DNA from: Terebella lapidaria
Lineage: Eukaryota; Annelida; Polychaeta; Terebellida; Terebellidae
Direction: 5' to 3'
Length of the DNA stretch: 64,000 nucleotides
Assembly: GCA_949152475.1 (NCBI GenBank)
Contig: OX424566.1
Location: 10,687,177 to 10,751,176, forward strand
Under the pieces are notes generated by a model. That model did no database searches and was not told the origin of the DNA. It was given only the letters and a program-made list of their open reading frames with translations. Of this stretch, positions 2,762 through 47,276 are shown piece after piece. The first letter of the stretch is position 1, and each line of letters starts with the position of its first letter. The position numbers and the translations under genes are program-made.

Positions 2762-5028
2762 ATAGATGACACTGCTGTGGTGAAATGTATGGTTAACCTA
2801 AAAATATGCACAGTCCATGCCCTAACATGGTCTTTGAGCAGAAAATTTTTCAAGAGGGGTGACGAGCTATCACCCTCAGGCAAATATGTCTTCTTCAGAT
2901 TTTTCTCAAAATTTGTCAGATTATTATGTGATATGTTTAGTATGAAAATGTAACTGTTGATCAGAAATTGGGGGTCACCGCGTTGGATTTGTTGCAAAAC
3001 ACTTTTGAACGGGTTTAGCTATGCTTCGAAATCTGCCTTATTATCAAGTTCAGAATGAATTAACAGCCCCAGCAAAAAATCATACGGTAGAAACTTTAGT
3101 TTACATGAATAGTGGATTGTACACAGTCATGTAATTGATGTAATAAAATGTTGGGGTCACTGCGGCAGAATTTTCGCAATCTGTATTCGAATGCTGCATG
3201 TTGGAACAGAATTCGTGCGCTCGTTTGCCACCAAAACGTCCGAGGTTTACCTATCGTGACGTCACAACACTTGGTGAAAGCTTCTTGAAGGGGGTCTCCA
3301 CTACAGAGCGCCCACAGGACACCACGATGCATATCGTTGCTATCATTTCCAACTCATAGGACTCTATTATATAATGAAAAAAAAAAAAAAAAAAACCTGA
3401 ATATTATCCGTCGCCTTCAACGGTTTCTCGGGATTGTCACAGTCGTTTCCAGGATAGTCGCAATTTCCCGTGAAAGTCGTACGCAAGTTAGAAAGAAGAA
3501 ATTCATCTGCCAACGATAAATGTTTTTTTTTTCTCTCTCTCCACAAAAGGGTGGCGGCTTTGGCATGCATTTAGGAATGGGCTCCGTACGTAGTAAACAA
3601 CTCGCCACAGAGATATAGTATTAGATCTAGATCTGCTCTGATTTTTTTCTCAAACACCGTTTTAGCTGATGTTCATGTTATTCTGATATAACCGTTTGTA
3701 GGATTTCCTTTGTCAGAATTTTGCCCATCAAACTGAGGAAGTGAGCCAGTCTTCAGTGATCAATGATCCTATTCACAGAATTTCCCGCCGCTGGCCAGTC
3801 GAGTCAGGCGAGTATCACGGAAATATTTTGGTCTGCATGTCAACAGAGATTGTTTATGTTCGGCGCGAGATGGAAGAGTCCACTGGGGTGATCTGCGTAG
3901 GGAACGTGGGTAGGAATGGGTACTGCCTCGAATTTGAATAGTCCGTAAATCTAGGCCTATAAGCTATGGCAGCATACATGCTGTCTCATAGCAACACGAT
4001 CCCCTAATAGTGTATAATTTGAACTTGTCCTACACTTGAATAATGACAATGGCAGCCTGAGCTACTCCACCCCTCACCCCCCACCACAATACCGTCTAGG
4101 CCATTGAAAGGTGGCGTTCCGCACGTCTGGTCTGTTACCATAAACTAGGTAAACTAGACTCTCCGGTCGCCGACGACCACGTGGGTATCCTCCCAGATCA
4201 ACGCAGATCTATAGATAAGCCTAACTACTAGTAACCCCTGTTGCCCAAAATCCATATGCTACTGGTCAGTGTCACTCAATCTCGGTAAGAATATGTCCAG
4301 ACTTGAACCAGTAATATAAGTCATTGTGCGGCCTGCGGCCAGACTACTTTATCACAAAACGAAATGCTATCTGATTTTGCGACGCAAATCAGAACTCTGG
4401 TTGCACCGAATGCAATCCAAATGACACCATTTTACATAGATCAAAATCTTGAAAAGTATCTCGGATTTATGCGAATAGGTCTATAACATATTTATCATAT
4501 ATACATTCATAAGTGTATCATAATCATGTTCACATGTGTGGAAAGTAACTAATATTTTGCATACTTTTTATATTTTTGCAAAAAGATTTTGTAGTTGTGC
4601 AATCTTTCGGAATCAACATGTTTGTCTAGAATACACCCCATTGTATAACAATTATACTTAAAATTATGATTGATGTAAACAAGACTAAATCCTCTAATTT
4701 GCACAGATTCTCGAGATCCCGTTCTGGGCTGACATTCAACATTGAGGTAGATTGCTAACTTTCTCAATTTTCGCAAAAATGCCGTTTGATTCCCAGGTGA
4801 AGTATGCCAAGTTATAGAACGATACCATTTAAAGTCGAAGTCATCTGTCAGTGAAACACGCGTTTTGGCCAAAGTGTCATGCCGCAATTTTTCACCAAAT
4901 TCCAGAATTCTATTTGAAAAAATGAAAAAGTTTGCAATCTACCCCAATGTTAAATTTAAATCAATGTTAATTTGGTTAAATGCCCATGGCACTAGATCAG
5001 TGTCAGCTTGGAGAATTTATGGACCATC
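2762..5028. other. AT-rich DNA without a recognised gene
   Basis: I found no conserved coding sequence. A run of about 20 A residues lies at 3374-3393, and a related short passage containing GGGGTCAC occurs near 2970 and 3153. Open frames here, including 4549-4887 on the minus strand, are unlike any family I recognise and have no supporting splice or start context. Confidence 0.45.
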
Positions 5029-5031
5029 TTA
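5029..5031. repeat. Target site duplication, left (TTA)
   Basis: TTA lies immediately outside the left inverted repeat and matches 18697-18699. Because TTAA is present on both sides, TAA is an equally valid reading shifted by one base. Confidence 0.8.
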
Positions 5032-5076
5032 AGCTGCCGTCAGACTATGCGAGTCAGTCGCAGCGACCGAGTCGCA
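5032..5076 (+). repeat. Harbinger left terminal inverted repeat
   Basis: 45 bp beginning AGCTGCCGTCAGACTATGCG and ending GTCGCA, perfectly complementary to 18652-18696. It already contains several TGCGAC/GTCGCA-type hexamers that continue inward. Confidence 0.95.
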
Positions 5077-5212: not shown

Positions 5213-5555
5213 ATGAACGAGGATGCGCGTCGGCGCCTTGTTGCCTTTTTGGCAACAAAAATTATGCGCAGAAGGCGAAAGAGAAGGCAGAAGCAAAGCA
5301 GAAAATACAAAAGGAGCGTGTGGGTGAAGCCATGGCTGGAACGTCGGAGCGAAAGTGGAGCCTACAGTAATCTGCTACAGGAACTTAAGGAGAATGATCC
5401 GAGCTCATTCACCAACTTCCTGCGAATGAATATCACTTCATTCGAGGAATTGGAGAAACTGGTTGCCGAGGAGATCAGAAAAAAAGACACCAGCTTCAGG
5501 GAAGCGATCTCCGTCGGAGAGAGGCTGGCCTTAACTTTAAGGTTTCTGGCAACGG
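5213..5555 (+). CDS. Transposase exon 1 (N-terminal region)
   Basis: Encodes residues 1-114 plus one base of codon 115. It contains the basic N-terminus and the conserved RLALTLRFLATG passage. The donor is GTATGT at 5556. The open frame continues past the donor to 5644, but there the sequence stops resembling the family. Confidence 0.88.
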
Positions 5556-8500
5556 GTATGTTACAGAGTCATTGTCTACTGGTCTGCATGATGGTGGTCT
5601 TGTCAGTACCTCGAACATACCCAGCCCACACACTGCCTCGTTGATGGTGTTGAAATCTTAATAGACCTAGTTTTCATACAAAATACATGCAAATAGTACG
5701 ACTATGAAGGTTCGTTTGTAAAATTGAGAGGACTTGTGTATGCAGGAGCTGAAATGTATATTCTAAAATTATCGCTGATGACTTTCTTCTTGATTTAGCT
5801 CATGTAGTTATTTATAATTGCCTTATATTGCAAATTAGTGTGTGTGTGTGGGGGGGGGGGGGGGAGATTTTCACACCTGATTAAAAAATAGCCAAAGGGC
5901 TAAGAAAGGTTACCGGACAATGTTTTACATCTTATATATTAGCTATTTTGTCCCGTGACCTTGAAAACAAGGTCAAAGGTCAAATTCAAGGTCACAAGAA
6001 TATTCAGCATATATATCATTTCATGTCCACAATTGATTCCTAAGCTGCAAAATCGACAATAGGCAAGATATTAACCATTTTGTGCTCTGACCTTGGAGAT
6101 GAGATCAAATTCAAGGTCATGAGAATATTCAGCATATATCATTTCCTATATCTGCTAAATTGATTGTAATTTTGTGCTTTGACCTTGAAAATGAGGTCAA
6201 AGTTCAAATTCAAAGTCATGACAATATTCAGTATATATTATTTACCATATGTTCACAGTTGATTATTAATCTGTAAAGTTGATAATAAGCAAGATATTAG
6301 GCATTTTATGCTCTGACTTGAAAATTAAATCAAAGGTCAAGTTCAAGGTCTTGACAATATTCAGTATACATATATCATTTCATTTCCTATATGTGCTCAC
6401 TTGATTGCAAAGTTGTAAGGTCGATAATAAACGAGATATTAACCATTTTGTTCTTTGACCTTGAAAATGAGGTCAAATGTCAAATTCAGGGTCATCTAAA
6501 TATTCAACATACATCACTTCCCATATGTTCCCATATTCCACAATTGATTCCTAAGCTTTAAAGTCAATAACAAGTGAGATATTAGCCATTGTGTTCTTTT
6601 ACTTTGAAAATGATGTCAAACGTCAAATTCAAGGTCATCAGAATATTCGGAATATATCATTTCCCATATGTCCAAAATAGATTCCTGAGTTGTATAGTTG
6701 ATATTAGGCGAGATATTAGCCATTTAATGCTCTGACCTTGAAAATAAGGTCAAAGGTCAAGTTCAAGGTCATGACAGTATTCAGCATATATCACTTCCTA
6801 TAACGCCCCAATTGATTTGTAAGGTGTGAAGTCGATAACAAACGAGATTTTAGCCATTTTTTCCTGTGACCTTGAAAATGAAGTCAAAGGTCAAATTCAA
6901 GTTCATCAGAATATTCGGCGTAAATCATTTCCTATATGTCGATAAGCGAGATATTAACCATTTTGTGCTCTTGACCTTGAAAATGAGGTCAGAGGTCAAG
7001 TTCAAGGTCACAACAATATATTCAGCATATATCATTCCCTATATGTCCACAATTGATTCATAAGCTGCAAAATCGATAATAAGCGAGATATTAGCCATTT
7101 TGTCCTGTGACCTTGAAAATGAGGTCAAAGGTCAAATTCAAGGTCATGACAATAATCTGCATTATATCATTTCCTATATGTTCATAATTGATTCCTAGGC
7201 TTCCTATAGGGCCCCAATTGATTTGTAAGGTGTGAAGTCGATAATAAGCAAGATTTTAGCCATTTTTTCTGTGACCTTGAAAATGAAGTCAAAGGTCAGA
7301 TTCAAGGTCATCAAAATATTCGGCGTAAGTCATTTCCTATATGTCGATAAGCGAGATATTAACCATTTTGTGCTCTTGACCTTGTAAATGAGGTCAGAGG
7401 TCAAATTCAAGCTCACGAGAATATTAAGCAGCTATCATTTCCTATATGTCTACAATTGATTCCTAGTCTCCAATCTCAATATTTAGTGAGATATTAGGCA
7501 TAATGTGTCCCATTATAAAGCATAGGATAATTTAACATGGGAAAGTCCCATTTGGGCCAAGTTTAGGCCAAAATGGCCCACTTCGAGCGATTCAAGCGCA
7601 ACGAAATTTATAGACATCATAGGAGTACATATGAGGAGTGTTATGTATCAAAAAGAAAAATATAGAACCGTAGGGCTCTGCGCTTACCGGACCCAAGATA
7701 TATGTTTCAGTTTTATGTAAGCTGAAAGCAATGTCATGAAGTCATGAGAATACTGTAAAAGTACTAATTTTCGCGCGGTACTTATTTCGCGTATTTCGCG
7801 GTAAGGGTAGATCCGCGAAATTAAATACCTCGCTAAAATAAGTCTCCCGCGAAAATTAATTTTGAGGTTTGTAAACGTCCATAGCACAATACGCTGTTGC
7901 TAATCATAACGCGCAGAATTACGTTAGTTACAGTGCCCAGATACCGGTCGCTAGCGTCTGCATGGCACGTGCTTGAACTTGGTGCCGATGAAATCTGCAC
8001 CAAGTTCAAGCTTTTGCAGACTAAGCATGACTTGTTTGACGTTTGTGTTTAAAATTTCAAATAAAATCTGATTTGATTTCCTGTGACTTTCCATTTCTCA
8101 CACCAATTGCATTGATATACTGTGATGTCCATCAACTGCAAATTCTTTACGCGATTACTGGCAATCACTGAACCGCGAAATTAAATCCCCGCGAAATTGC
8201 CTGGGGGTAAAACCCGCGAAATTTAATACCCGCGAAAAAAAGTGTTTTTACAGTAATTGCAAATCATTCACGTGTTAGAGCCTAATATACAATGATATGA
8301 AACTAGAATGGAACTGACTAATACTGTCAAAGATATTCTTTGCTTTTGTATCAGTTTCAGTTTATTGAGGTCAAATGTCAAATTTAAGCTCACAAGAATA
8401 TTTGGCATATATAATTTCCTATATGTCCACAATTGATGCCTAAGCTGTAAAGTCGATAAAAACCAAGATATTAGAGATTTTGTGCTCTGATCTTGAAACT

Positions 8501-11500
8501 TGGAATGTCCCATTGCTTTGAATGTCAAGGAGCCAACTGACCCACTGTTCAAATGCTCTAGCCCTCTCCCTGGATTCCTAAGCTGTAACGTCGATAATAA
8601 GCGAGACATTAGCCATTTTGTCCTGTGACCTTGAAAATGAGGTCAAAGGTCAAATTCAAGGTCACGATAATATTCAGAATAAATCATTTCCTATATGCTG
8701 ACAATTGATTCCTAAGCTGTAAAGTCGATAATAAGCGAGATATTAGCCATTTTGTGCTGTGACCTTGAAAATTAGGTCGAAGGTCAAATTCAAGGTCACG
8801 AGAATACTCGGCATATATAATTTCCTATATGTGCACAATTGATTCCTAATGTCTAATCCCAATATTAAGTGAGATATTAGGAGAAATGTGTCCCCATTAT
8901 AAAGCATAGGCTAATTTAACCTATCTGAGACACGTCGAAAAAATCAAAATGGCTGCCACACGCAGAGCGACGATTCAATGTAAACGAAACTTATACACAT
9001 AACAAAGGTATATCAGGGGAATCTTTTGAAACAAAAATCTCAGAACTGATCAGACATTTTTTGAGAAAATGGCCCCCAAAGTCCAAAATTGGCCATTTTT
9101 CGACAAAAATGGCCGCCATTTTGGAAAAAAAACGATTCAATCGACGAAAAAAAATTGGTCCGGAGATATGGGCCTATAGAACATATTTTGTGAATTACAG
9201 CAATATTCATCGAACAGATTTTTCCCAGCGTTTGACAACACCAACACCGACGCCGACGCCAACACCGACGGACGGACAACCTGACGACAATAGCTTATCG
9301 GACCATAGGTCCGGTAAGCTAAAAAGTTACTGAACAGATTTTGAGAAAATGGCCGCCAAAGTCCAAAATCAGGCATTTTTCGTCGAAAACGGACGCCATT
9401 TTGAAAAAAATGCGAAAATCAAAAAACTAACAAATACTTCCTTCTTGAATTATTTTTAAGTATTTTTGTGCAATATTTCAGAAAAGTTCGCCCGTAAGCA
9501 AAAAAGACAAAAATTAAAAAAATGTGGACGACGACGACGACGACGACGGACGACGACGACAGATGGAACGCCACGGCAATAGGTTATCGGACCAAAGGTC
9601 CGGTAACCTAAAAAGAGAAGACCGATATTGTCATACTATAATGCTAGTGAAGAACGGTCATCTAGATAGATAGGCCTACACCTGTTATAGTACAATGCCA
9701 GTTAAAACTGTCATTTAGATATATTCACCTATTATAGTATAATGCCAGTGAAAAACGGTCATTTAGATAGATACACCTGCTATAGTTTAATGACAGTGAA
9801 AAACGATAATTTAGATCTAGATAACCTGTTATAGTATAATGACATTGACAAAACTTGTACCTACATACACATACATTACTGTTTAACACATTTTGATATT
9901 TGAATGTTTTGATATTTGAATGTTGTTTGATATCAACGAATGCAACACTGTGGATAGGTATGAAGTAATAATTTGTAAAGAAAGGTCAACGGATGCTATA
10001 TTGATTACAGGGGAATCTTACCAAAGCCTCTCCTACCAGTTTCGTGTTGGAAGATCAACCATTAGCGAGATTGTTCCGGAGACCTGCGAGGCAATCTACA
10101 CAGTACTCCAAGGAACTTACATGAAGGTACTCACATCATGACTTCAAAAGTTATTATTTGGAGAATGAGTAGATGCCTATAAATTTATTTATTATGGGGT
10201 CTGACATCCCAATTAGGGTGTTTAGACTCATTCTGGATTAGATTCACTCAGATAAATCTTCACCATCGTGATATGTAATTGATGACTTGGACAATTGATT
10301 TAAAAGAAAGTATATTTTTATTTCAGAAACACACTTTTATAGAACATCCTAGTGTTTTTTATTTCCAACATAATAACAATACTGCAGTATATTATGATGC
10401 TTATATTTTATTCACATCGTTTCTTTTTTTTCAGCTTGGATCAGTCATATATAGGCTTATTGGTACAAACCTTACGAAGCAAACCAAATTACACAGATTT
10501 TTTAAATGCCTTTTTTATTATTCTACATACTGGTAAAAAAGGATTCATTACCCAAAGGTTTAAATGTAAATTTATCGAATTCTTTATAGTGCACGAAAAA
10601 AAAAATCGCGATTACATTGCTTGGTTTGATGCGATATTCCAGTTGAGGGTTAATCAAAACCCCGCGAAATTGCAACCACCAAATTCGCGAGATTTAGTCC
10701 TCGCGAAATAGTTAAGCTTACAGTATTCGAGACCTGAAATTCCTGTATTCGGAGTCCGTATTTGGTTGTGAGAGAAATATTGACGCGCGGTCAATATTAT
10801 AGATATTCACCCATTTAATTTCGCGACCATGGAAACACATTATAAAAAAGTAGTAGAAGCATATAATAATTTAAAGACAAATATTAATTTTGGTGTCGAT
10901 AAATACGTAGTTATATTTCCCTCACGATATAATGATAAATTATTAGATGGCTTCGCGCCTATTGGCTCACGAATGAAGTTTGAAGTATTTAAAACCTCCA
11001 GTTCATACAGTGTTGCGACAAATTTGTGATCAATACTTGGAAACTACATGTTTGTGGGCCACACCCGTGACCGAGGGCCATCTCCGAACAAATCTGTCTC
11101 CTGTGGATAATTGGACATCACAGGCGTTACAATAGCAGAAATACATAAGACCAGTGTATTTATGACATTAGTAACTGCATCGAATTTCTAAGCTAATGCA
11201 GTCACTATTCTCCAAAAAAATTTTCAATCATCATATATCAGCGCGAACTTCCAAGAAAAATAGCCTTACAGCGTTGACAACAAAATGACCTGACCCCTGA
11301 ACAAAATACGGTCAAGTCGGTCAACGCTGTATGCCATTTGATAGGATGAATTGGGACTACTGCAAACCCCTGAATTTTTCGCGTCCACTAATTTTCGCAA
11401 TTTTCGCGTTTTTATTATGAACGCCAAGTTTATGGAAGCAAATTTTCACAACCAATATAATTGATTTGCAAATGCAAACGCGAAATTAAAAGGCTGCAAT

Positions 11501-14470
11501 CATTTCCATTTCGTGAAAACACGAACTCAAGTGGACGTGAAATTAAAGAAGTTTACAGTATTTCTAAACAGAGAGAACGAACATGTAAAAGTCATTATTG
11601 CGAAGAAGTGCCAACATTTAATTGTCTCAGTTGCATTAGTATAAATTTAAACATTTGCAGAAATTTCATTCAATCCCCAGATGAAATATGCAAAGTTCAA
11701 AATAACATATAAACATTTATAATAATATGAGTAAAACACTGAAATGAACAAGATTGAAAAATCAGAGTATTTACCATTTTCTGTTCATATCATTGCAATA
11801 CTGAAAGATATCATGTTATAAACAAGCATAATTAGCCTGACATTCAAACCGCAATTCTCTACCCAATTTCATACTTTATCGCAACAATCGAAAAAGTTGG
11901 CAATCTACAGCATATTAAATTTCAGTCCAAAACGGCATCTCAGGAATCTGAGTAGGTCCATACTCCGCCAAGAACGGAACATATTGAAATCAAGACATTG
12001 CACAACTACAAGAACAATCAAATTCACTAAACCTTTTGCGGAGCTTAAAAGAAAAAGTTGAAGTTTGTCACGATATCATTCACCATCGCAATAATAAGAG
12101 CGAAAAATCAAGCATTATAATCATTAAAATGTAACACATTTACAATACCCACACTTACAAAGTTGACAATTACATTACAGGGGTATTTTTTCAGGTATGC
12201 ACTGACCACTCGTTGGCGCAGGTGTACAGGTGTAGGGAAATTGTGTTACAGGCTGCATTTGGTACATGCTCTGATTTCCGGAAGATAGATGAACAGGAGG
12301 CATGTGCGGAGCGAACAAAGCCTGTGTTATTTGTTGCTTTATTAACGATTTAATTACAGGGTCCTCCATCTGGCGCAATTCACTTGCGACGAAGTCGCCA
12401 AATGCCTTATCCGGGTCATTCGTGACTGGTATATGTACCTCCGTCACTGAATCGTTCAGTTTCCTAAGCATATCAATTTCTTCCTGCGAGTGTGTGAGGG
12501 CTTTCTTCTTCTTCCGCGGTGCTTTTTCGCTCTTTCTGCTGGATGAGGCGATCGTTCCGAGAGATTCACTTGCCGAGTCTGATTCGCTGGATTCGGATGT
12601 CGTCTGACTCCCCTCAGTGTCCTGGCTGAGCTGTAAAATATAATTATGCACTAGGCAAATTTTACTAGAATTATGATAAACGTTTCTGTGTATTACAGAT
12701 GCCATCATCGGATGAAGACTGGCAAGAAATTGCTAAAGAGTTTGAAGAGCGATGGAATTTCCCACTGTGTTTAGGAGCCCTCGATGGCAAACATGTTGCT
12801 ATCCGACCACCAGGAAACAGCGGTTCAACATACTTCAACTATAAGCAGTATTTCAGCATTGTTCTGATGGCGTTAGTTGATGCTGATTACCAATTCAGAT
12901 ATGTTGATGTTGGGTGCCAGGGACGGATATCGGATGGGGGTGTGTTCAAGCATTCATCACTCGGAAAGGTACGTATATAGGGCTGTAAAGCGGAAGTACT
13001 CATCGATGGGAAATTCCAATGAATTTATTCGCCCTGGGGATAAGCACCTGACGCCTCCCTATCTTTTAACATGGGGGTGTATTTAAATTGGTGATTTTAA
13101 GCATATAAACGATATCTTTAGTGTGTTTTAGTATCCATACATGATGTATATATACAAACACTGTTGTAAAAGATAAAAATTGTACAATTCCAGAGCTTAT
13201 GAACGATTCGAAGGGGTACTGAAAAAATCGGCACTTCAAATAAAACATTGCTATAGCTAAACTGCTGGCAGGCGGCCTGTTATTTGAACGAATATTGGCA
13301 AATGTGTACCTGCTTTGTACTTTCGCTACAGTTATTTGACATAAGACATGTTATTTCAGCAGTTATTGACGTTGTTAGAAATGAGCGATAATAAGGTTTA
13401 TCCCCAGCGACGCCTTATTCACGAAAATTTCATTGGAATTTACCACCGATCATACTTCCGCTTTACAGCCCTATATATGATGTGCGAACCTTTTCCATAT
13501 ATAGCGTCCAAAAAAAGAAAAAAATGAGAAACATATTTTTGAAATTTTAGATTTTTGAATGTTCGCTTTTTTCTAACTTTTGAGTTTTTGTTTTCTCGAT
13601 TTTTGATTCTGCAAAGGTTCGACTTTTCGTTTTTTCGAATTTTCGAAAATTTCGAAAGAAAAAGATGAAATCAAGAAGTAAAAAAAAAAAACAATTCAAA
13701 AATCAAAATTTGGAAAATATTTTTCAGGATTTTGAAAAAAAATAAATGTAAAAATGAAACACTTTAAAAAAAAGTAACTGGCCGTTCTGCGCTTCCGTAT
13801 ATACGGGATATTTATGGAAAACCAGTCCAAAATAAATTATGATCGATGTGAGAAACATATAGCATGTTCATTAGTTTGTCAGTTCCTTTACTGTGTTATT
13901 TGATAGGCAATCGAGAAAAGAAGTATCGAATTCCCATCACCAAAGAAGCTCCCAGGGATGTCAGATGCCTTGCCTTATGCCATAGTGGCGGACGACGCTT
14001 TCCAGCTGACAAAGGAAGTAATGAAGCCATTTTCACACAGAAAACTCACCAGAAAGCAGAGGATCTACAACTACAGGTTGTCACGCGCCCGACGCGTTGT
14101 AGAGAATGCGTTTGGAATCTTAGCTAATCGGTTCAGGGTCCTCCAGACTACGATCAATCTGCGACCAGAGACGGTTGAGAAGGTAGTTTTGGCTTGTTGT
14201 GTACTCCACAACTATCTCAGAGTGCACTCCAGTGCACGACATGTGTACATGCCCCCTGGCTCGGTTGACGCGGAGACGAATCAGCACCAGATCATCCCTG
14301 GTTCATGGAGGAGTGACAACAACAAAAGCCAGAAGACACCTTCTGGTTTAACGCCGCTACAGAAGAACGGCAAAAATCACTCCTCTGCTGCAAAAAGCAT
14401 CAGAAATGCATGGTGTGAATACTTTAATTCACCCCAAGGATCTGTCAGTTGGCAAAATGAGATTGTCTAA
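5213..14470 (+). CDS. Harbinger DDE transposase, four exons, 430 aa
   Basis: Exons 5213-5555, 10011-10126, 12699-12968 and 13907-14470 join in frame across GT-AG introns of 4,455, 2,572 and 938 bp. The product cuts and rejoins transposon ends in the nucleus through an RNase H-like DDE fold. A basic stretch (residues 19-34) may serve nuclear entry. A helix-turn-helix-like part follows (about 95-145). The likely catalytic residues are D182 (LGALDGKHVAI), D272 (YAIVADDAFQL) and E309 (RRVVENAFGIL), all present. Length is usual for the family. The ATG at 5213 was chosen as the first in-frame ATG after the left inverted repeat. No stop or frameshift was seen. Exons 3 and 4 lie within intron 2 of the opposing MADF gene. 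Splice sites are read from sequence and family alignment, not from RNA. Confidence 0.9.
5884..9613. mobile_element. TCAAGGTCA-array element(s) with terminal hairpin, inside transposase intron 1
   Basis: It starts with TAGCCAAAGGGCTAAGAAAG next to AGGTTACCGGAC. Degenerate tandem units of roughly 90-150 bp built around TGACCTTGAAAATGAGGTCA and TCAAGGTCA follow (5950-7490 and 8340-8880). A tail of AAATGGCCGCCA and GACGGACGG tracts ends in the hairpin CGGACC-ATA-GGTCCG (9299-9313). A second partial tail repeats the end at 9325-9613. Related copies lie at 44.6-49.0 kb. A 3' hairpin followed by CTAA recalls Helitrons, but the GGTTACCGGAC ends are also inverted, so the class is left open. No open frame for a replication or integration enzyme was seen. 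Confidence 0.6.
7753..8253. mobile_element. TA-flanked MITE with CGCGAAATT-rich ends
   Basis: The ends CTGTAAAA and TTTTACAG are inverted and flanked by TA on both sides (7751-7752 and 8254-8255). The inverted similarity continues imperfectly through several TTTCGCG motifs. It sits inside the TCAAGGTCA element, which itself sits inside the Harbinger intron. It has no coding capacity. Confidence 0.6.
9631..9850. repeat. Short tandem repeat, about 55-63 bp period, four copies
   Basis: Four imperfect units share TATAGTATAATGCCAGTGAA, followed by AACGGTCATTTAGATAGATA. They lie between the TCAAGGTCA element and transposase exon 2. Confidence 0.6.
10011..10126 (+). CDS. Transposase exon 2 (helix-turn-helix-like region)
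   Basis: Encodes residues 115-153, including SYQFRVGRSTISEIVPETC, the conserved passage that follows LATGES in Harbinger transposases. The acceptor ends TTGATTACAG and the donor is GTACTC. The exon restores the frame left by exon 1 exactly. Confidence 0.88.
10127..12174. other. Transposase intron 2, part upstream of the MADF last exon
   Basis: AT-rich non-coding DNA. It holds a CGCGAAATT-rich MITE fragment at about 10600-10727 and a complete small MITE at 11360-11558. Open frames here (for example 10352-10711) lack any recognisable motif. Confidence 0.5.
11360..11558. mobile_element. Small TA-flanked MITE in transposase intron 2
   Basis: Inverted ends CTGCAAAC / GTTTACAG are flanked by TA (11358-11359, 11559-11560). 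Subterminal TTTCGCGTCCAC and GTGGACGTGAAAT are mirrored. It is related in style to the 7753-8253 element. Confidence 0.5.
12175..12630 (-). CDS. MADF gene exon 3 (linker, basic patch, BESS)
   Basis: Encodes 151 residues with the Ser/Glu-rich linker, PRKKKK and the BESS motif. The acceptor is ATTTTACAG and the stop TAA is at 12175-12177. It lies wholly in transposase intron 2, with 68 bp separating it from transposase exon 3 on the other strand. Confidence 0.87.
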   Translation of the reverse strand, partial: LSQDTEGSQTTSESSESDSASESLGTIASSSRKSEKAPRKKKKALTHSQEEIDMLRKLNDSVTEVHIPVTNDPDKAFGDFVASELRQMEDPVIKSLIKQQITQALFAPHMPPVHLSSGNQSMYQMQPVTQFPYTCTPAPTSGQCIPEKIPL

Positions 14471-17400
14471 ATGACAATGTACACGACTTAGTGTACTGTT
14501 GCCCTACTGTTATGGAAAAATGCAGATTTTTATGTTCTATTGGTTGCGGGAAGGGGGGGGGGGGGGCACGAATACATTAATACACAGAGTTTGTTACTGT
14601 AAAATTCCACCCGATGACTATGTATCTGCGTGAGGCAAAATTTGTTAATCAACTGTTTCACGTTGGCCACCTGTTCCGCGTTGTTGCTGATTTCGTCAGA
14701 ACAACTGTGCTTGCAATTTTTAATGAGAATCTGAGGCCGTATAGCGTCCAGAAGGCCGGTTCGGAGTCAACGTTGGAGTTCCGTTCCAAATACTGCCTCG
14801 GGTTATGGCTTGCACTGGTTATCGCACTTCTGCTTTCAATCGAACTATTGCATGTACTGATTGTCGAGATTATTAAAATGATGATTCGACCAATAAATAT
14901 CAACTATTATCAATACACCACTGAGAAATTCCGATATTCTGTGGAACTATTGTTGTACGCAAATACTTTGTGTATCTGTATGAATTTATCGCATTTTACA
15001 AGGAACTCGTCGAAACTCCAGTGTATTTCTTACCATAATACCGCGGACCCTGTAAGAAACGAAGAATTATAATTTTAACCAACAATAACGCGGAATGGGT
15101 GGCCACCGTGTAGTTAGTGACAAATTTCAATGTAGTCAAATGCATTACTAGAATATGTACATGTAACACTATCTCCTCGTACGAAATTGATGCATTCAAT
15201 ATCTGTGTACCTATCGACACATATTGTGACTAAATACTTGCAATAAAATAACACTACTCACTTTCATGTTACTTCGACTCTCCTTGGCCACAATGTTCTT
15301 TTTCAAGAAGTTGAGCCTCCTGGTTAGCCATTTCTGACGCTCAGTCAATTTTTTTCCCTTTGACCCGCTCGGTTCAAACTTCAACGTCTTTGAGTACTGC
15401 GTTCGGAGTGACCGCATGCGGGATGTTATCTCCTTCACTGTGGAATAAAGAGGATTTATATTTCAAATGTTTTCGGTGATTAAGTTACGGTTTACCTACA
15501 GTACTCACTTAGTAAATTTTCTCCCCTCGTAAAAAATCAATTAGCCTGAGGTCTAAGATAGGTTAACAGTTATAACAAAACTGGAAAACTAATCAGAATA
15601 ATTGAATGCTTGAGAGATGGTTAATCGATACAGTATAATTCTTGGAGGAACATTTGGGGGGGGGGGGGGGGGGGGGTTGCTCGATCCGACCCTGATAATT
15701 GTGATGACATGTTCCATCATCCTAATATTTGTGATGACATGTGTGGAATTAAATTTTCACCACAGACCGTGATTCTACAGGGAAAGAAGCCTCTTCCATT
15801 TTTAATAGTTTATTTTATATTTTACCGTTATAAGTTATTGGTGCTGCATTTTTACAAAATATATAGGGTGGGTACTTCCTTACTGACATTTTACTACTAA
15901 ACGAAACATTTAAATAAATGCGACCTGTTTGCCTTTATATTGACAGAATATTGATTATCTCTTCTGAAACAATTGTTTAATCTCCCATGGTAATATGGAA
16001 TAATATTGTACAATTCAACATAAATTATATATATACGGCTTTACATTCACCAGTATTCTACAATCTGTGAAACAAAATAACGAGGTTTTAATACTAGTAT
16101 ACTGTAGTGGGCGAGGGTGCATCCGGTGCGCCAAGGGCACACATACAGTTGTAACATACACCTCATAAATCATGTTTAGTAAAGTACTGAAATCCACCAA
16201 TTTCTTCCGAGCTTTAAGGCGCCCCAACCCCTCAGTCAGGAATGTTAATATATTTATGAACATCTGAACTATACAAATATAGTAAAGAACGCCTGAAATC
16301 ATCTGAAATACTATGCCTAAAAATCCAACTCGGCTTACCTCCAGACCGAAATGAGTAAGCCTAGCCCCATAACAAATACAGCTGTACTTTGTACACTATT
16401 GTAAACTATAAACTACACCTAATAGATATCCTCTGGGATACCAGAATATCCAAAACTTTCCCAAGAAGCTTACTAATAATTACGGCCCCGAACCGAGAGG
16501 AGCTATAATCGCGTTTAGGCTTGAAAATATAAAATGCCCCCTCCACCATGCCAAATTCCTGGATCCGCTCCTGTTATATGGATACAATAGTAAGTTGAAC
16601 GAGATGTTGCATGACTACCTACTTAGCTCAGTTTTACTGTATCAGCAATACGTGTAGTATCTAAACGCACGGTAACTATGGTTACATCAGCGTAGCCGTG
16701 TATAGAAATGCGTGATCATCACGTGGCGTTTAGGGTACACTGGGACAACACAGTCCCGGCACATATCTCCCATTGATCTTCCCAACCAATATAGCTCATT
16801 GTTACCAACTTACGATATAGCCTAACATACCGATGCCGGCTTAGTCCAGTCTGGCCTTGGTGGATGACCATTAAAACTCGACATGTAGGACTGATTCAAC
16901 CAAGACTAATCAATGGCTAATATATGTAGGTCTACCTCATACAACTTAAATTATGCGTCATGCGTAGACAAGTTGTGTACATCAAGTTTAGCTTTTTGTG
17001 CATAAATCTAGATAATATTAAGCATATATGGTGTACGTATGGTACATGACACCTCAATTGCTAGCTTACATGTAGGCCTACTCGTCCACTGCACAAATGC
17101 ATTTCCAAAATGCTGGCAAATTATTTTCACGATGTGGGCAACTAACACTTGCATTGATTGTGGAAGAACACAAAATGTCTGTAATTTACAGCTCAACGTC
17201 GGGTGACAGAATTTTGAATTTCGAAAGCACCCTTCCGGATTCATACGGCACTCTGAATGCCATTCCTTCGACAGTCACGACCCTATCCACTCAGCCTTTG
17301 GAAATCTGACACTTTTTTGATGAGAAAAAATACTAATGAAATTTCCGGGCTCGCTTTCGTCGCACTTCACGCTGATCGACACCCCTTGTCCCGAATTCAT

Positions 17401-18451
17401 GGATCTACCCCTTATACTGTACCTGAGGATTTACAGATACCAGATATCGTTAATTTTTTAGTGATGTATTGTGGCATCATTAAACATGTTTTCTATCCAG
17501 GTCTACTATTTTTTTTAATGCAGACGATTTATAGAAAGGAAACGAATATGCATGTGTTGTAAATAAATTTTCTTGTTTATGTTAGCCTACTAACATGTTA
17601 GGCCTTATGTCAGCCTGAACCAAAGTCATTGGCTATGTGGAAATTTGATCCCCATGTAAAGTATGATATTCAAAATGAATGCCATTAAACCCGTCAGCCT
17701 TTTTTTTTTATCTCTGGCCAATATAAGGCTATTCAAATAGCCAGCTCCAGGTGGCTCTGATATCGCCCTGTAAGCCTACCATTGGTGTAGCATACACCTG
17801 GAGCTAACTTGGAGAAAGTTACCCTACACCTGTGTGAGGAACAGGAGTGGCTCATTTCTTTCGAAGGTTTTCTTATATTTTCTGTCTATTATAAAAAAGA
17901 AGAACTGCTGATAAATATCCCAACAAACATATGTAGCATGAACGCTGTGCCCGGGTCTCCCCTACATGGATGTTATTTGAAATCCAATGCACGGTAGGCC
18001 TATACGTATTGGGTAAATTGCCCTTTCCTTCATCAGATTTTATAACCTTACAGCTGGTAAAAATGCCTACATTTGAGGTGTCGGTTTATGGACTCACTTT
18101 CGTGAATCAACCTAGATCCAGATCGATATCAGTACTGCAGCATGGTGTGGGCTTAATATGTTAGTCGACGTTCGTGACTTTGGGCCTACATTTTAGAAAT
18201 GGATAATGCACTGGTCAACATCGGCAGTGAGCTCAGTGTACTAGTAATTAATATTTTAGTGAACCATATTTAGTAGATCTATGCCCACTCAGTTGTAAAT
18301 TACCAGATGTTTGTAGCTTCTCAGAGATGGTCGTCAGCGCCGAGGCTCTTTTGTCTCTGTTCCTGTATTCTGAACTGCTAACATCAAAGAGCGAGGGAGT
18401 CATTTCCCAGATGTCCACAAGATTATCGTCGGCAGCCTGTGTCCACTCCAT
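12175..18451 (-). CDS. MADF-BESS DNA-binding protein of the Harbinger, three exons, 259 aa
   Basis: Minus-strand exons 18304-18451, 15262-15437 and 12175-12630 join in frame over GT-AG introns of 2,866 and 2,631 bp. A MADF domain (about residues 8-105, starting DDNLVDIWEMTPSLFDV and continuing VKEITSRMRSLRTQYSKTL) should bind DNA. An acidic/serine region, a PRKKKK basic patch (about 146-151) and a BESS motif (about 182-214, FGDFVASELRQMEDPVIKSL) follow; BESS motifs mediate protein contacts. In Harbingers the accessory Myb/MADF-type protein is known to help the transposase reach the nucleus and the transposon ends. That role here is inferred. The first ATG lies about 200 bp inside the right inverted repeat. 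No stop or frameshift interrupts the model. Confidence 0.88.
12631..12698. other. 68 bp spacer holding two opposed splice acceptors
   Basis: The plus strand ends TATTACAG, the acceptor of transposase exon 3. The minus strand ends ATTTTACAG, the acceptor of MADF exon 3. Both branch regions must fit within these 68 bp or overlap the opposing exon. Confidence 0.75.
12699..12968 (+). CDS. Transposase exon 3 (first catalytic Asp)
   Basis: Encodes residues 154-243 with LGALDGKHVAI and DVGCQGRISDGGVF, both hallmarks of the Harbinger nuclease. The acceptor is TATTACAG and the donor GTACGT. Phase is 0 at both sides. A MITE begins 11 bp after the exon end. Confidence 0.92.
12980..13471. mobile_element. 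MITE in transposase intron 3
   Basis: Perfect 19 bp inverted ends (GGGCTGTAAAGCGGAAGTA and complement) extend imperfectly to about 75 bp. They are flanked by TATATA-type sequence consistent with a TA duplication. The 492 bp element makes up half of the intron and starts only 11 bp after the end of exon 3. Confidence 0.75.
13907..14470 (+). CDS. Transposase exon 4 (second Asp, Glu, C-terminus)
   Basis: Encodes residues 244-430 with LPGMSDALPYAIVADDAF and ARRVVENAFGILANRFRVL, then the usual CCVLHNYLR passage. It ends at TAA 14468-14470. The acceptor is read as TTTGATAG because AIEKRSIEFPSPKKLPG fits the family directly after HSSLGK. The polypyrimidine tract is modest, so the exact start is the least certain joint. 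Confidence 0.88.
   Translation, partial: AIEKRSIEFPSPKKLPGMSDALPYAIVADDAFQLTKEVMKPFSHRKLTRKQRIYNYRLSRARRVVENAFGILANRFRVLQTTINLRPETVEKVVLACCVLHNYLRVHSSARHVYMPPGSVDAETNQHQIIPGSWRSDNNKSQKTPSGLTPLQKNGKNHSSAAKSIRNAWCEYFNSPQGSVSWQNEIV
14471..15261. other. Downstream of transposase, within MADF intron 2
   Basis: Contains a G run at 14555-14567 and open frames in both strands that overlap each other and match nothing known. CAATAAAATA at 15241 is a possible distal poly-A signal for the transposase, but this is a weak call. Confidence 0.4.
15262..15437 (-). CDS. MADF gene exon 2
   Basis: Encodes the C-terminal half of MADF (RMRSLRTQYSKTLKFEP and KWLTRRLNFLKKNIV). The acceptor is TTCCACAG and the donor is the strong GTGAGT. 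Confidence 0.87.
15438..18303. other. MADF intron 1
   Basis: AT-rich DNA with a G run of about 20 near 15655-15676. No complete inner element or recognisable exon was found. Its base composition resembles the surrounding genome. Confidence 0.45.
18304..18451 (-). CDS. MADF gene exon 1
   Basis: Encodes residues 1-49 plus one base: the N-terminal half of the MADF domain (WTQAADDNLVDIWEM). The donor on the minus strand is GTAATT. The next codon is completed by exon 2 to give Val. Confidence 0.85.
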
Positions 18452-18651: not shown

Positions 18652-18696
18652 CTGCGACTCGGTCGCTGCGACTGACTCGCATAGTCTGACGGCAGC
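18652..18696 (-). repeat. Harbinger right terminal inverted repeat
   Basis: 45 bp, the exact complement of 5032-5076, followed by the TTA target duplication at 18697-18699. Confidence 0.95.
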
Positions 18697-18699
18697 TTA
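18697..18699. repeat. Target site duplication, right (TTA)
   Basis: Matches 5029-5031. Joining the flanks gives CATCTTAAGATG, a perfect 12 bp palindrome. Confidence 0.8.
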
Positions 18700-19051
18700 A
18701 GATGAAATTCAAGTATCATTTGTGAATATATTTTGATACATATATTTATACATATAGATACATATATTTTGTGAGATCAGATCTGAACACGTGTCATTTT
18801 GTTTCTGTATTGTATTTGTTCATTAGATTTGTCACTGAAATTGTCCTTTGTTTACGAGAATCCAGTCATGGAAGATGACACTGACAATCAAACTGTACCT
18901 GTGGATCAACTCTCTGGTTATCATGTGTGACACACACATAGCTGGTGCGGTGTTGCTTAGGTCTATATTCATGTGTCAAATAACATAATATTGAGATCAC
19001 CTATAAATAAAGAAACACATATCTATAATATATAAGCTAATTATAAGGCCC

Positions 19052-21770
19052 TCACAACGAACAACAACTTCTTTTCACTCCAATACCGGGGTCTGTCGCG
19101 CTTTGGATCTGCATGAGATTACTAGTAACGGCACGGCATCGAAAGCCCCTATACGGTGGCTGATATATGCCATCATTTTTATTTTTCGACCAACAGCCCA
19201 CCCCCCCCCCCCTCCCCCTATAGATAAATTGAACAAATTTCGTACGTACGAAACTAGTAATGGTATGTACAAAACTAATTTCTCAGTGGATCAGACTTAG
19301 AAATGTATATTCAGATAAAACAATTTTCATTTATATTGCCTTGCCTGGGTTGAGAGGTGTTCCAAGAAATGATAATGATGGTATAATATCAGCCACCGTA
19401 CATCAAAGATGTTTTACTTTTACTACTGCTTGTGGTCCGCGGCTCTTCGACTGAAAGAAATATTGCTCGTATCGAATGTTTAGATAATATCGTCGAGTTG
19501 TTTTCTGTTATATTGATTCTGTTTCCTTGTGTCGGTTGTTTGTGTTGAATGTCGACACGGAATAATGTGCCTGAATTTATTGTCTCATAATATCTAAATT
19601 CAGAAACGACAGCGGGCACACGTCAAGACAAGTTCCATGCAACTTCACGTTTGTGATGAATCGATCTCAGTAGATCTATTCAGTTAATATACAGACTATT
19701 TTGCAATTGCAACTGATTCAAAGCGGATAATTTGTAGATATTGATAAAATATGCAGGTTGTTCAGATATCGAGTGACCTCATAGAATATGACAATCCTGT
19801 GAATTTTATTCAAATCTCTCGCGCTTTGCTCATCCAATGGGAGGCAATGTACAACCTTTCAGTGGGCCAAGCATGGTCGGATCTTACGTGCTTTATGGGG
19901 AAACCAATCACAAAGAAGAACAGTTCTGGCCTTTGTGGGTGGGAGTATGGTCCCAAATAAAATGATCCGGAATGTGTTGCTATGGCAACAAGGACAGGGT
20001 ATTCATGTTTGAGGAAAATATCGAAAGCATTATTCACATTGAACACCGTAGCTACACAGTACAAACCGTGAATTAGGCCTGTTTTCACAAATATTCACAG
20101 TGCTCGTATGTGGCAAAATCGCAAGTTGAATGTAATTATTTGCTTTATTTTTACGCGGTTTTCATGAGGGAATTACGCGTAGATCTACATGTTTTATCAT
20201 GAGTATGTGCATAAGAAATTTTTTGGGTGAGATTGCAAGGAAAAACGTCCTGATAACCTTCTTCTAGAAAGAAAAAAACCTCTTAGTATTACGAACTTCA
20301 AATTCATGGGAGATCTGGAGGAACATATTACTGGTAGTGATCATGAGGGAGTATAGTGAGTATGCCTACTCGAAGCATAGGCAGCCTCGAATCAATCTTC
20401 AAAAAATATATATGTATGTATTACCACATCTCCTATACCCGACCACGCTCACTAGCTTCCTCGTGCTGTAATACACAGGGGCGTCGCCAGATAATATTGT
20501 AGTGTTCTCAAAATTCTGATAAACCTGGTCTGACCTGGTCTGAGGATTGCACCAAACCCCTTAACAAAATCTCTAATTTTAGCACTTTCTGGAAGCTATT
20601 CGGAGTTAGCTTATTCAACATTTGTTTCTAAATATTTTGATTATTAAATATTAGAAGTATTTTTTTTAATTACACAAAATAATATATACTTTTCTCAATT
20701 TAGCATTTTCTCCAAATATCTTACAAGTAGGCCTATATAGAAGCACTTTTTAAAAATAAACTTGTACCCAATTTGAAGTCTACATTTAACTCAAGTCAAA
20801 GTGAATTTCAAGTTATCATGTTTTGTGTGATAACAAAATGATAGCAGAAAAAAATTTTGTACTGACTTTTGCAGATCTTTAATATCTTTAAACATTCTAG
20901 AGATAATAATAATTTTGTGTCAAGTTTTCAAAATATTTGTACTGAAATTATTTATCTCATGAGGTATAATGAGCATTCATGACGTCAAACCAATAAGTTG
21001 CTTTAATCTGCTACTTTTAGGGCCTTTTTCTGAATGATTCGTGCATAGTATCGCTGAATAATACGACTAAAAACATGATAATACAAAATATATCACACCC
21101 ATAAGATGTGTCTTGTCACCACTGCAACCATATTTTACCTATGACCACTGATTCAATCACCTAATTCAATATTCACAGTGTTTGGCCCCTATCAACCTCG
21201 TTTGCTATGGGGCATATCACGAGAATTGTTACCTTGGCAAACAATACTGGTATTCGAACAATGATTATATATCGTTTCAATCAAAATACATAGTAAATAG
21301 AGTACATATTGGTATCATATATGCTTGGAAATAGACGTTGCATTAGCTGCTACTTGCTTTACCCTTTCGATGTCATGAATATTCATTACAGTGATAATAT
21401 TAATTAGATAAAAAAGAAAGTTAGCCTACTAAAACTGCTATATGTTAAAAAATAATCAAGATATTGACATGCTGAAACTATAATAATCCATGACATTTAC
21501 TCTATCAGCTGTCAAGAATGAATATCCTGACTAGCAAAAATTGAAAATGTTGGCAAGGCAAAAAATAAATTGATTTGTGGCAATATTATAGTTTGTTGTG
21601 TAGTGTGTAGTTTGTACAGGCCAGAATGCTCACCGTGCGATTTCAGAACAGCCGAAATAGCAGGCAGCCCAATCATTCTCCTTTCTGTTAGTTTTGTAAT
21701 TGGCATTATAGTTATTGTACATGTTGTACAGGATGTCGTACATATGTACCTCTAAAATCAACTTCTCTTC
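19052..21770. repeat. Duplicated segment D1 (left of the minisatellite)
   Basis: Collinear and in the same orientation as 39880-43820. Shared landmarks include TTCACTCCAATACCGGG, GACAGCGGGCACACG, CAGTGGGCCAAG, the passage ACACAGGGGCGTCGCCAGAT and the end GTACAGGATGT. The two copies differ by many substitutions and by insertions in D2, so the duplication is old. I see no gene in it. Confidence 0.75.
19152..19400. mobile_element. Small inverted-repeat element with TACGGTGGCTGATAT ends (D1 copy)
   Basis: The left end TACGGTGGCTGATAT is mirrored by ATATCAGCCACCGTA at the right, followed by CATCAT-type inverted similarity. The same element lies at the matching place in D2, so it inserted before the duplication. 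The termini resemble those at 51091 and 60024. Confidence 0.55.
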
Positions 21771-21850
21771 CATGATGATTTTATCATTCTACGGCAATGA
21801 TATGTGTACGTTCTGATATATGCTACAACATGCGCAAAATATATGTTCCA

Positions 21851-24611: not shown

Positions 24612-25774
24612 CAGACATGGGGTAATCGTAATCATTAATCGTAATCAAACCCCTAATTACGATTACGATTACATAATCGTAATCGATTACATTTGAAAAT
24701 TTCATGATGTAATCGTAATCGTAATCGAATACATGGTAAAAGTAATCGTAATCATGATTACATCAATTGAAATATAAAAAAAAATTCTGTATTCGTGGAA
24801 GTTAAGAATTTAGTCATGACATAGGGGACATTTATAATATTGTCTTGCTTTTCACTCATGAAATCCACACGTCATTATGATAAAAAAAACTTGGCACAAC
24901 CACTTATTATATGACTCAACAAACTACATAGATTTTCTGCTCCATGTACAGGTGTATATACCAAATTATGAACACATGTGTTCGTAAGTTATCACTAAAT
25001 GAAATTTATGACCGGTTGACCACTGTGTTACATAGATACTCGGTTTGCATTGACTGCAGGAGGTATTACTGAATAAGATATCACTTGTGTTACAATGCTG
25101 TATCTGGACATCAAAGGAAGGTCTTGTACAAATCACCTTCCGCAAGCAGAGATACGTATCAAACTTGACAATTGCAGGGTGTTTGGCTGCCTCTCTTGAT
25201 TATTCCAGTACCGCCCGCCCCTCCCCCCCCCCCACCCCACTCCGATCTCTCCCTCCAATTCCGCATTCGATTGGCTCCCATTCCTCACCTCCTCACACCC
25301 AATAAAACTTAATTGTTAGACAGACCATTCATAACACTGCCATTGTGTAAACGCGAACAATCATCCAACAAAGGAAAGTCTGTTGTTTCTGTTGTTATTA
25401 GTATACGATGAAAGCGGCGTATGGTTCCAGGGTCGAATTCAGTCTTGCTATATTACAGCAGCTTTTGTTTTGAAAATATTTTTCCAACAAATATATCTAA
25501 GCAATTCCTCAAAAATAATTTCTCACTTTGATAGTTTTCTCTTGATGGTATATTTTCTCCTCAATCACTAGTTAGCGCTGACACCTACTTGTTTTTCACT
25601 CTACATCTAATACGAAAATAGTAATCATGATTGTAATCATAATTACAATGGATAAGTAATCGTAATTGTAATCGATTACATCTATATTTGCCTGTAATCG
25701 TAATTTAATCATCAAATGTGTGAGTAATCGTAATCGTAATTGATTACATTGACCTTGTAATCGCCCCATGTCTG
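24612..25774. mobile_element. hAT-like non-autonomous element, copy 1
   Basis: Ends CAGACATGGGG / CCCCATGTCTG are flanked by the 8 bp duplication GAGTACAC (24604-24611, 25775-25782), the pattern of hAT elements. Both subterminal regions are made of TAATCG/CGATTA repeats in inverted arrangement; the middle is unique and contains a C run at 25219. No transposase frame was seen. The target was a GAGTACACATG variant unit of the minisatellite. Confidence 0.8.
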
Positions 25775-28375: not shown

Positions 28376-29538
28376 CAGACATGGGGTAATCGTAATCATT
28401 AATCGTAATCAAACCCCTAATTACGATTACGATTACATAATCGTAATCGATTACATTTGAAAATTTCATGATGTAATCGTAATCGTAATCGAATACATGG
28501 TAAAAGTAATCGTAATCATGATTACATCAATTGAAATATAAAAAAAAATTCTGTATTCGTGGAAGTTAAGAATTTAGTCATGACATAGGGGACATTTATA
28601 ATATTGTCTTGCTTTTCACTCATGAAATCCACACGTCATTATGATAAAAAAAACTTGGCACAACCACTTATTATATGACTCAACAAACTACATAGATTTT
28701 CTGCTCCATGTACAGGTGTATATACCAAATTATGAACACATGTGTTCGTAAGTTATCACTAAATGAAATTTATGACCGGTTGACCACTGTGTTACATAGA
28801 TACTCGGTTTGCATTGACTGCAGGAGGTATTACTGAATAAGATATCACTTGTGTTACAATGCTGTATCTGGACATCAAAGGAAGGTCTTGTACAAATCAC
28901 CTTCCGCAAGCAGAGATACGTATCAAACTTGACAATTGCAGGGTGTTTGGCTGCCTCTCTTGATTATTCCAGTACCGCCCGCCCCTCCCCCCCCCCCACC
29001 CCACTCCGATCTCTCCCTCCAATTCCGCATTCGATTGGCTCCCATTCCTCACCTCCTCACACCCAATAAAACTTAATTGTTAGACAGACCATTCATAACA
29101 CTGCCATTGTGTAAACGCGAACAATCATCCAACAAAGGAAAGTCTGTTGTTTCTGTTGTTATTAGTATACGATGAAAGCGGCGTATGGTTCCAGGGTCGA
29201 ATTCAGTCTTGCTATATTACAGCAGCTTTTGTTTTGAAAATATTTTTCCAACAAATATATCTAAGCAATTCCTCAAAAATAATTTCTCACTTTGATAGTT
29301 TTCTCTTGATGGTATATTTTCTCCTCAATCACTAGTTAGCGCTGACACCTACTTGTTTTTCACTCTACATCTAATACGAAAATAGTAATCATGATTGTAA
29401 TCATAATTACAATGGATAAGTAATCGTAATTGTAATCGATTACATCTATATTTGCCTGTAATCGTAATTTAATCATCAAATGTGTGAGTAATCGTAATCG
29501 TAATTGATTACATTGACCTTGTAATCGCCCCATGTCTG
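28376..29538. mobile_element. hAT-like non-autonomous element, copy 2
   Basis: Same length (1,163 bp) and same flanking GAGTACAC as copy 1, at offset 3,764. It arose by segmental duplication and not by a new insertion. Confidence 0.85.

Positions 29539-47240: not shown

Positions 47241-47276
<36 letters not shown>

Follow-up and report, generated by a model that had tools for sequence, protein, structure and literature searches.

The window analyzed here is a stretch of 64,000 nucleotides of Terebella lapidaria (OX424566.1), and a DNA transposon of the two-gene PIF/Harbinger type makes up its segment from 5.03 to 18.70 kb. A transposase paired with a MADF or Myb-like protein is the known gene pair of two-gene PIF/Harbinger elements of animals. 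The initial annotation had named this family, and the assignment was borne out by DDE_Tnp_4 and MADF domains, inverted repeats, and a TTA duplication. The features are listed by position; exons and introns are from the gene models, and MADF exon 3 is abbreviated M3.

5025..5076, plus strand: 5' inverted repeat; the arm takes in a few flanking bases, the element proper starting at ~5032 as judged from the second copy
5029..5031 (left) and 18697-18699 (right): TTA target-site duplication, flanks read by eye
5213..5555, plus strand: transposase exon 1
7753..8253: insert of ~500 bp in transposase intron 1, missing in the C1 copy
10011..10126, plus strand: transposase exon 2
10127..12698, plus strand: transposase intron 2 (joint YMK|MPSS), hosting MADF exon 3
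12175..12630, minus strand: MADF exon 3, C-terminal, including the stop; frame conserved in relatives
12631..12698: spacer of 68 bp with two back-to-back acceptors (M3 on minus, transposase exon 3 on plus)
12631..15261, minus strand: MADF intron 2, hosting transposase exons 3 and 4
12699..12968, plus strand: transposase exon 3 (also Pfam)
12974..13477: MITE-like insert of ~490 bp with 25-nt inverted ends in transposase intron 3, missing in the C1 copy
13907..14470, plus strand: transposase exon 4, including the stop (also Pfam)
15262..15437, minus strand: MADF exon 2 (also Pfam)
18304..18451, minus strand: MADF exon 1 (also Pfam)
18653..18704, minus strand: 3' inverted repeat, from the repeat listing

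Gene models and the interlock

The predicted spliced transposase (1293 nt, 430 amino acids) and MADF protein (780 nt, 259 amino acids) each have a single terminal stop, both frames are open, and all 10 intron ends read GT/AG. Pfam analysis of the spliced proteins gave PF13359 (DDE_Tnp_4; 2.8e-35, residues 181-345) for the transposase and PF10545 (6.2e-15) for the MADF protein. The transposase motifs ALDGKH (at 180), VADDAF (at 270), and VENAFG (at 308) presumably hold the catalytic D, D, and E residues. A PDB sequence search with the transposase returned no relative at E 0.001, and no match was found for the whole transposase in phage records or for its exon 4 in viral contigs.

The initial annotation had described two genes interlocked through each other's introns, and all of its coordinates were reproduced when the gene models were recomputed. 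The nesting is mutual, with M3 on the minus strand inside transposase intron 2 and transposase exons 3 and 4 on the plus strand inside MADF intron 2. The genes thus converge and cross without exon lying on exon, as had been proposed; this holds for the seven predicted coding exons, which are mutually disjoint, and the two coding spans overlap by 2.3 kb (12175-14470). The further proposal, that the mature mRNAs would have no complementary sequence in common, can be relied on only for the coding exons, because poly(A)-like hexamers occur at 1.7-1.8 per kb across the element anyway, too frequently to fix the 3' ends. Those at 14872, 14892, and 15242 on the plus strand and the nearest on the minus strand (11617 and 11411) are at positions that fit non-overlapping mRNA ends, and at the related locus C17:23.23 none was found from the transposase stop to MADF exon 2. 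The hexamers were dropped as evidence for 3' ends, being too common.

Ends, copies, and mobility

The terminal inverted repeats (5025-5076 versus 18653-18704) have 52-nt arms that are 100% complementary, as seen in a repeat listing of 1-24 kb. The TTA was present on both sides in four of the five copies whose ends were read (window, C1, C7, and C11), with 1-3 additional bases at a junction; the C6 derivative, one of whose ends is degraded, is without a flanking TTA pair. The element ends were also found on short relatives.

A near-identical copy with unrelated flanks, a sign of mobility, lies on another contig (C1:76542741-76555416, minus strand) and is 99.5-99.7% identical to the window element. 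It has the same seven exons and GT/AG sites with both frames open, and it differs from the window at 3 of 2073 coding nt. Among the matches listed, the window family had no full copies beyond these two.

Relatives in the same genome

Fourteen related loci were read from 144 listed matches, 150 of 270 candidates having been scored. Four loci were interlocked, six were not, and four were not classifiable; loci were chosen because they ranked high in the list or had MADF matches nearby, and this split is therefore not a frequency. Three pairs of the loci read each represent a single family (C4:31.36 and C2:38.5; C3:55.28 and C9:12.5; C13:23.06 and C16:7.07).

The window exon order was observed in all four interlocked relatives. 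At C17:23.23, the transposase (T) and MADF (M) exons T1, T2, M3, T3/4, M2, and M1 were all matched in that order, with an in-frame stop and frame breaks. The order is also present at C1:72.09, which has a stop inside the first transposase exon and stops in the MADF match, and at C2:54.72, where transposase residues 1-154 and 374-430 were unmatched and the 5' transposase exons were not found. C17:23.23 and C1:72.09 have the joint YMK|MPSS at the corresponding position, and in C2:54.72 its acceptor side only was seen. C12:20.48 has the same order, and three further copies of its family are interlocked by coordinates, all three having the end of exon 1 upstream. The transposase of the C12 family may be dead, since the exon-1 donor reads AT where GT is expected in all four copies. 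Given these stops, frame breaks, unmatched residues, and the AT donor, no intact interlocked pair was seen among the relatives read outside the window family.

The non-interlocked relatives are C4:46.87, C16:7.07, C5:14.9, C4:31.36, C2:38.5, and C9:18.6. For C16:7.07 and C5:14.9, this score reflects the absence of introns from the part of the transposase that was matched (residues 29-430 and 22-430, respectively), and no MADF tail exon was identified; for C4:31.36, C2:38.5, and C9:18.6, a long frame behind MADF was taken as the tail exon by its position and not by M3 homology. In all six, with the MADF domain located, MADF also faces the transposase, and convergence itself is common among these relatives. 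The loci not classifiable are C3:55.28, C9:12.5 (a MADF fragment only, ~9.5 kb away), C13:23.06, and C15:25.1. Further M3-like matches lie at C4:28.92 (two places, the nearest listed transposase match being on the same strand 4-10 kb away), C15:4.07, and C7:6.59. Another place with MADF and transposase is C1:72.14, where a search with the M3 of C1:72.09 gave no match.

The initial annotation had posed the question of whether this layout has become fixed in a lineage. The layout is present in the two recent copies and, with evidence of varying strength, in the four divergent relatives of the same genome; C4:46.87, a member of the same clade, is not interlocked.

Is the crossing real?

The assignment of M3 to the MADF gene is the point at which the models could most simply fail. 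If they were wrong, the MADF gene would end near exon 2, the frame at 12175-12630 would be foreign or unused, and the crossing would be smaller or absent. The models are predictions from sequence, and M3 had no Pfam match above cut-off (one hit of E 0.039 scored 15 bits, where 25 are required); its predicted structure is mostly of low confidence (mean pLDDT 57.8), the usable part being a putative two-helix hairpin at exon residues 73-106. Against this, when the M3 stretch was compared in six frames with the M3 regions of two relatives, the MADF frame gave E values of 5e-10 and 4e-9 and the others at best 0.006, so that the predicted frame is the one clearly conserved of the six. In profile tests with the tested row omitted, M3 homology was found for the window family (C1 copy, E 3e-7), C17 (2e-7), and C2:54.72 (3e-11) and was weak for C12:20.48 (0.33) and C1:72.09 (4.5). 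Both the window and the C1 copy have a phase-0 M3 joint with GT/AG, as does, by eye, C17:23.23. Finally, in non-interlocked C4:46.87 an M3-like frame follows directly behind a MADF exon and on its strand, which is the arrangement to be expected of an exon of the MADF gene. Wrong models are accordingly considered decidedly unlikely. It is hardly credible that two unrelated transposons, one inside the other, merely look interlocked: the element does carry later inserts, but a single inverted-repeat pair encloses both genes, which occupy the same places in the copy on the other contig, and they form a known Harbinger pair whose order is repeated in divergent relatives. No second terminal-repeat set around one gene only was found among the longest pairs in the repeat listing of 1-24 kb. 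With the exon order recurring in divergent relatives and the predicted M3 frame alone clearly conserved, the predicted interlock is more than chance.

Proposed mechanism and maintenance

The best explanation, which we consider probable as a whole, is that the element is a PIF/Harbinger transposon that moved recently and that its transposase and MADF genes are transcribed toward and past each other. We read the interlock as genuine and inherited, a variant of the two-gene Harbinger architecture, and the related elements suggest that the layout was inherited and is not an accident of one copy. We infer that each primary transcript would carry the partner's exon or exons in antisense within an intron, and that splicing would remove them to give two separate mRNAs and two proteins. 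The two Harbinger proteins are known to act together on inverted repeats in the superfamily, according to the sections of PMC9179366 considered here, and by analogy the MADF protein may help the transposase to locate the inverted repeats.

The layout probably arose by internal rearrangement from ordinary tail-to-tail genes inside the element. One possible route begins with a partial tandem duplication of the tail region, after which reciprocal loss would have left one transposase tail and one MADF last exon. Its upkeep would probably come from each intron carrying the partner's exon: clean loss of a housing intron, or deletion of the tail of one gene, would cut the other gene, and the interlock is proposed to persist because of this ratchet. 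The idea that interlocked families have never lost one particular intron, the one that houses M3, was rejected as circular, these families being defined by having that intron.

A real interlock might instead be kept for regulation, the overlap of the primary transcripts acting through, for example, nuclear antisense pairing or polymerase collision and limiting the transposase under strong MADF expression. The shared 2.3 kb of coding span, which the poly(A)-like hexamers would permit to reach ~3.3 kb, and the recurrence of the interlock in several families are consistent with such a role. Six relatives are not interlocked, however, which argues that overlap is not required by all, and the ratchet alone also predicts conservation; this alternative is thus deemed unlikely.

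Comparison with known systems

The window element shares its DDE_Tnp_4 transposase, MADF/Myb-SANT partner, inverted repeats, TTA duplication, and short end-sharing relatives with animal two-gene PIF/Harbinger elements. Unlike for the window element, gene interlocking is not mentioned in the sections considered here of two papers on such elements (PMC9710019 and PMC9179366), and the words "opposite" and "overlap" are absent from the main text of both. Overlaps of intron with exon are known between host genes. The sections of PMC2151771 considered here count 160 intron/exon overlaps that are not nested, in a total of 1,766 human gene overlaps and not split by strand, and those of PMC2330155 class pairs as convergent, nested, and embedded and describe overlap of coding sequence with introns as frequent in zebrafish, fly, and worm. 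Such pairs, as far as these sections go, share with the window pair an intron/exon overlap without exon-exon overlap; they are host genes, whereas the window pair comprises both genes of one mobile element and its layout moves along. In Giardia, an antisense gene over an intron has been proposed to block intron loss, an "overlap constraint" (PMC6545626, in part), and the ratchet put forward above follows the same logic. As described there, the antisense gene covers the intron of one gene, whereas in the window element each gene occupies an intron of the other. Our literature search found no report of such an interlock for a transposon's own two genes.

A mobile element's own two predicted genes are here physically locked via introns, in a layout recurrent in divergent relatives. 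If RNA confirms the models, the element would offer a natural test of whether small gene pairs suffer from convergent overlapping transcription or are regulated by it, of whether occupancy protects an intron from loss, and of the way in which two-gene transposons retain both genes. Such genes would presumably be missed or truncated by annotation pipelines that bar overlap between opposite strands.

History of the trait

In a first transposase tree, the interlocked rows fell on one side of a branch (100/99). This single grouping was broken once C4:46.87 was added, and holding the five interlocked rows together was rejected with an AU p of 0.003, in a test run after the tree was seen and with long branches. 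As read from the transposase tree, the trait must have changed twice, having either originated twice or originated once and been lost once. Since C4:46.87 belongs to the same clade yet is not interlocked, the ratchet would have been escaped once or the trait would have arisen twice. It is conceivable, if somewhat doubtful, that the interlock arose at least twice in one Harbinger clade via different transposase introns, at YMK|MPSS in the window type and at LR|FLATG in the C12:20.48 type. If so, the interlock would be a recurring state, favored or hard to leave, and no single accident.

Anatomy of the element and its genes

The element at window 5.03-18.70 kb is bounded by 52-nt terminal arms that are perfectly complementary and enclose two genes facing each other. 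Spliced according to the initial annotation, the plus-strand gene yields a transposase of 430 amino acids that matches DDE_Tnp_4 (2.8e-35) and, below threshold, HTH_Tnp_4, and the minus-strand gene yields a protein of 259 amino acids that matches MADF_DNA_bdg (6.2e-15). Considered as a transposon, the element belongs to PIF/Harbinger and is unremarkable within it. All intron ends of both models are GT/AG, and the order of the transposase exons (T) and the MADF gene exons (M) on the DNA is T1, T2, M3, T3, T4, M2, M1, with a 68-bp spacer from which M3 and T3 start in opposite directions. The last MADF exon, M3, was correctly placed by the initial annotation within transposase intron 2, as were T3 and T4 within MADF intron 2, and the claim that no exons overlap holds for the coding exons, none of which touches another. 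This mutual housing of exons in introns is referred to here as an interlock. Transposase intron 1 contains, at 5900-9620, repeated 134-143-bp units of the GGTCAAAGGTCA type; these occur in both element copies, with repeats like them also at window 46861-48995.

A second full copy was found in the genome (761.6 Mb, 438 contigs) at C1:76542741-76555416, minus strand, with flanks unrelated to those of the window copy. Their alignment has 30 mismatches over 12,693 columns, its three blocks being 99.5, 99.5, and 99.7% identical; the coding bases differ at 3 of 2073 positions, with one amino acid change per protein. The C1 copy has seven exons and every splice site intact with both frames open, so that the seven exons and joints predicted initially are present at the DNA level, as open frames with GT/AG ends, in both full copies. 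Two inserts, both in transposase introns, are present in the window copy and absent from the C1 copy:

7753-8253, insert
12974-13477 (12980-13471 as the stretch lacking in C1), insert resembling a MITE, with inverted ends of 25 nt, some ten bases past the T3 donor

A TTA target duplication was the best reading of the flanks in four of the five copies whose ends were inspected. When the first 126 bases of the element were used as the query, 40 matches were listed (the best 40 of 167 candidates scored), two of which are the full copies. Three others (on C6, C7, and C11) are internally deleted derivatives that keep both element ends, with main end pieces 92-97% alike and no match to the interlocked middle at window 10.0-15.5 kb. 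The other 35 listed matches, 83-88% alike, are probably short non-autonomous kin.

M3 as a MADF coding exon

The assignment of M3 was examined by comparing all six frames of 12175-12630 with the M3 regions of two related loci, named by contig and megabase. The predicted frame gave E-values of 5e-10 (C2:54.72) and 4e-9 (C17:23.23) and the best other frame 0.006, these values referring to a search space of about 1 kb. Profiles built with the tested family left out recovered the window family (the window and C1 copies) at 3e-7, C17 at 2e-7, and C2:54.72, the best M3 homology among the families, at 3e-11. M3 homology was weak in two of the five interlocked families, namely, C12 (0.33) and C1:72.09 (4.5, and not the best frame of that locus). 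The M2/M3 joint of the window is in phase 0, as is that of C17 by inspection. The conserved part of M3 (residues 73-106) is predicted to form a helical hairpin (pLDDT block means of 85, 90, 91, and 73), which resembles C-terminal motifs of other MADF proteins.

Recurrence in the same genome

Searching all six frames with the T4 protein yielded 144 matches from the best 150 of 270 candidates scored; among these, identity was at most 60% everywhere except in the two full copies. Fourteen related loci, a non-random choice, were inspected. As to whether the layout is fixed in a lineage, a question posed by the initial annotation, it recurs at four of these same-genome relatives and is missing from six. 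In C17:23.23 every part was matched, in the order of the window element (T1, T2, M3, fused T3/4, M2, M1), and intron 2 is at the window's joint, but a stop and several frame breaks disrupt this copy. C1:72.09, also broken by stops, shares this joint, and its intron holds an M3 frame of 123 amino acids, stop to stop. In C2:54.72, M3 and T3/4 lie at the same acceptor as in the window with MADF downstream; the 5' exons and last part of its transposase were looked for and not found. In C12:20.48, M3 lies in a transposase intron further upstream (LR|FLATG), and three more copies have the same order by coordinates. All four copies of this family carry AT in place of the expected GT donor after transposase exon 1 (near 1278 in L037; also L040-L042); their transposase frames further downstream and their M3 frames are nonetheless open. 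Both the DNA anatomy of the interlock and its recurrence are directly observed. Since C17:23.23 and C1:72.09 are broken and C2:54.72 is incomplete, no intact interlocked pair was found among the inspected loci beyond the window family. The interlock is firmest in the window family, with two intact copies, and in C17:23.23, with all parts found.

The non-interlocked loci are C4:31.36, C2:38.5, C16:7.07, C5:14.9, C9:18.6, and C4:46.87, each with a MADF domain downstream on the opposite strand; C16:7.07 and C5:14.9 were so counted without an identified MADF tail exon. C3:55.28, C9:12.5, C13:23.06, and C15:25.1 were not classifiable. At C13:23.06, two tandem transposase genes (L015/L016) about 2 kb apart fall almost together in the catalytic-region tree. 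At C4:28923616-28933649, a transposase match shares its strand with two M3-like matches at a distance of 4-10 kb, a layout different from both types described.

One origin or two

Before C4:46.87 was added, the catalytic-region tree separated the interlocked rows from the others by a branch with support of 100/99. C4:46.87 has an M3-like frame (26% identity to the C12 M3; E of 2.6e-5) on the same strand as, and directly behind, a MADF exon, a position in keeping with M3 being part of the MADF gene. Since this non-interlocked locus groups with C12:20.48 (support of 100/99) and a tree forcing the five interlocked rows together was rejected (p-AU of 0.003), the trait is deduced to have changed at least twice. 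As read from these sequences, the interlock was either gained twice or gained once and lost once, and the C12 type, which uses another transposase intron, suggests two gains. With long branches, relations within the clade that the tree does not settle, and a weaker C12 case, two origins are a tentative reading to which we give somewhat less than even weight.

The layout itself probably arose by partial tandem duplication of the gene tails followed by reciprocal loss. Once formed, an interlock would be difficult to undo; for introns of Giardia, a comparable "overlap constraint" has been put forward (PMC6545626).

Expression and relation to known overlaps

Both genes are probably transcribed. 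The two primary transcripts would then each hold the partner's exons, in antisense, inside an intron, and two ordinary mRNAs would result from splicing. Antisense pairing of these transcripts is a possible regulatory role, but such a role is unnecessary to explain the layout. MADF or Myb-like proteins are described as entering the nucleus with the transposase and binding the inverted repeats (PMC9179366, PMC9710019).

Non-nested intron/exon overlaps, which are akin to the interlock, are known between host genes and account for 160 of 1,766 human overlaps in one survey (PMC2151771), a figure not divided by strand, whereas here both genes are one transposon's own. No interlock between a transposon's own two genes was found among the titles and abstract openings listed by searches of the open-access literature (subscription journals and Repbase reports lay outside this search). 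Since the transposon is ordinary, host-gene overlaps are known, and the open-access searches listed no transposon case, we regard the interlocked pair as a new layout within an otherwise known kind of element.

Other features of the window

Tandem units of 21 bp start at 21.75 kb (the repeat search covered up to 24 kb), and repetitive open frames like those of this repeat, of up to 1428 amino acids and with breaks, extend to 39.17 kb; the frames across 21750-39170 look like products of the 21-bp repeat. GC skew is strong and opposite in two single kilobases, 51000-52000 (-0.46) and 57000-58000 (+0.48).
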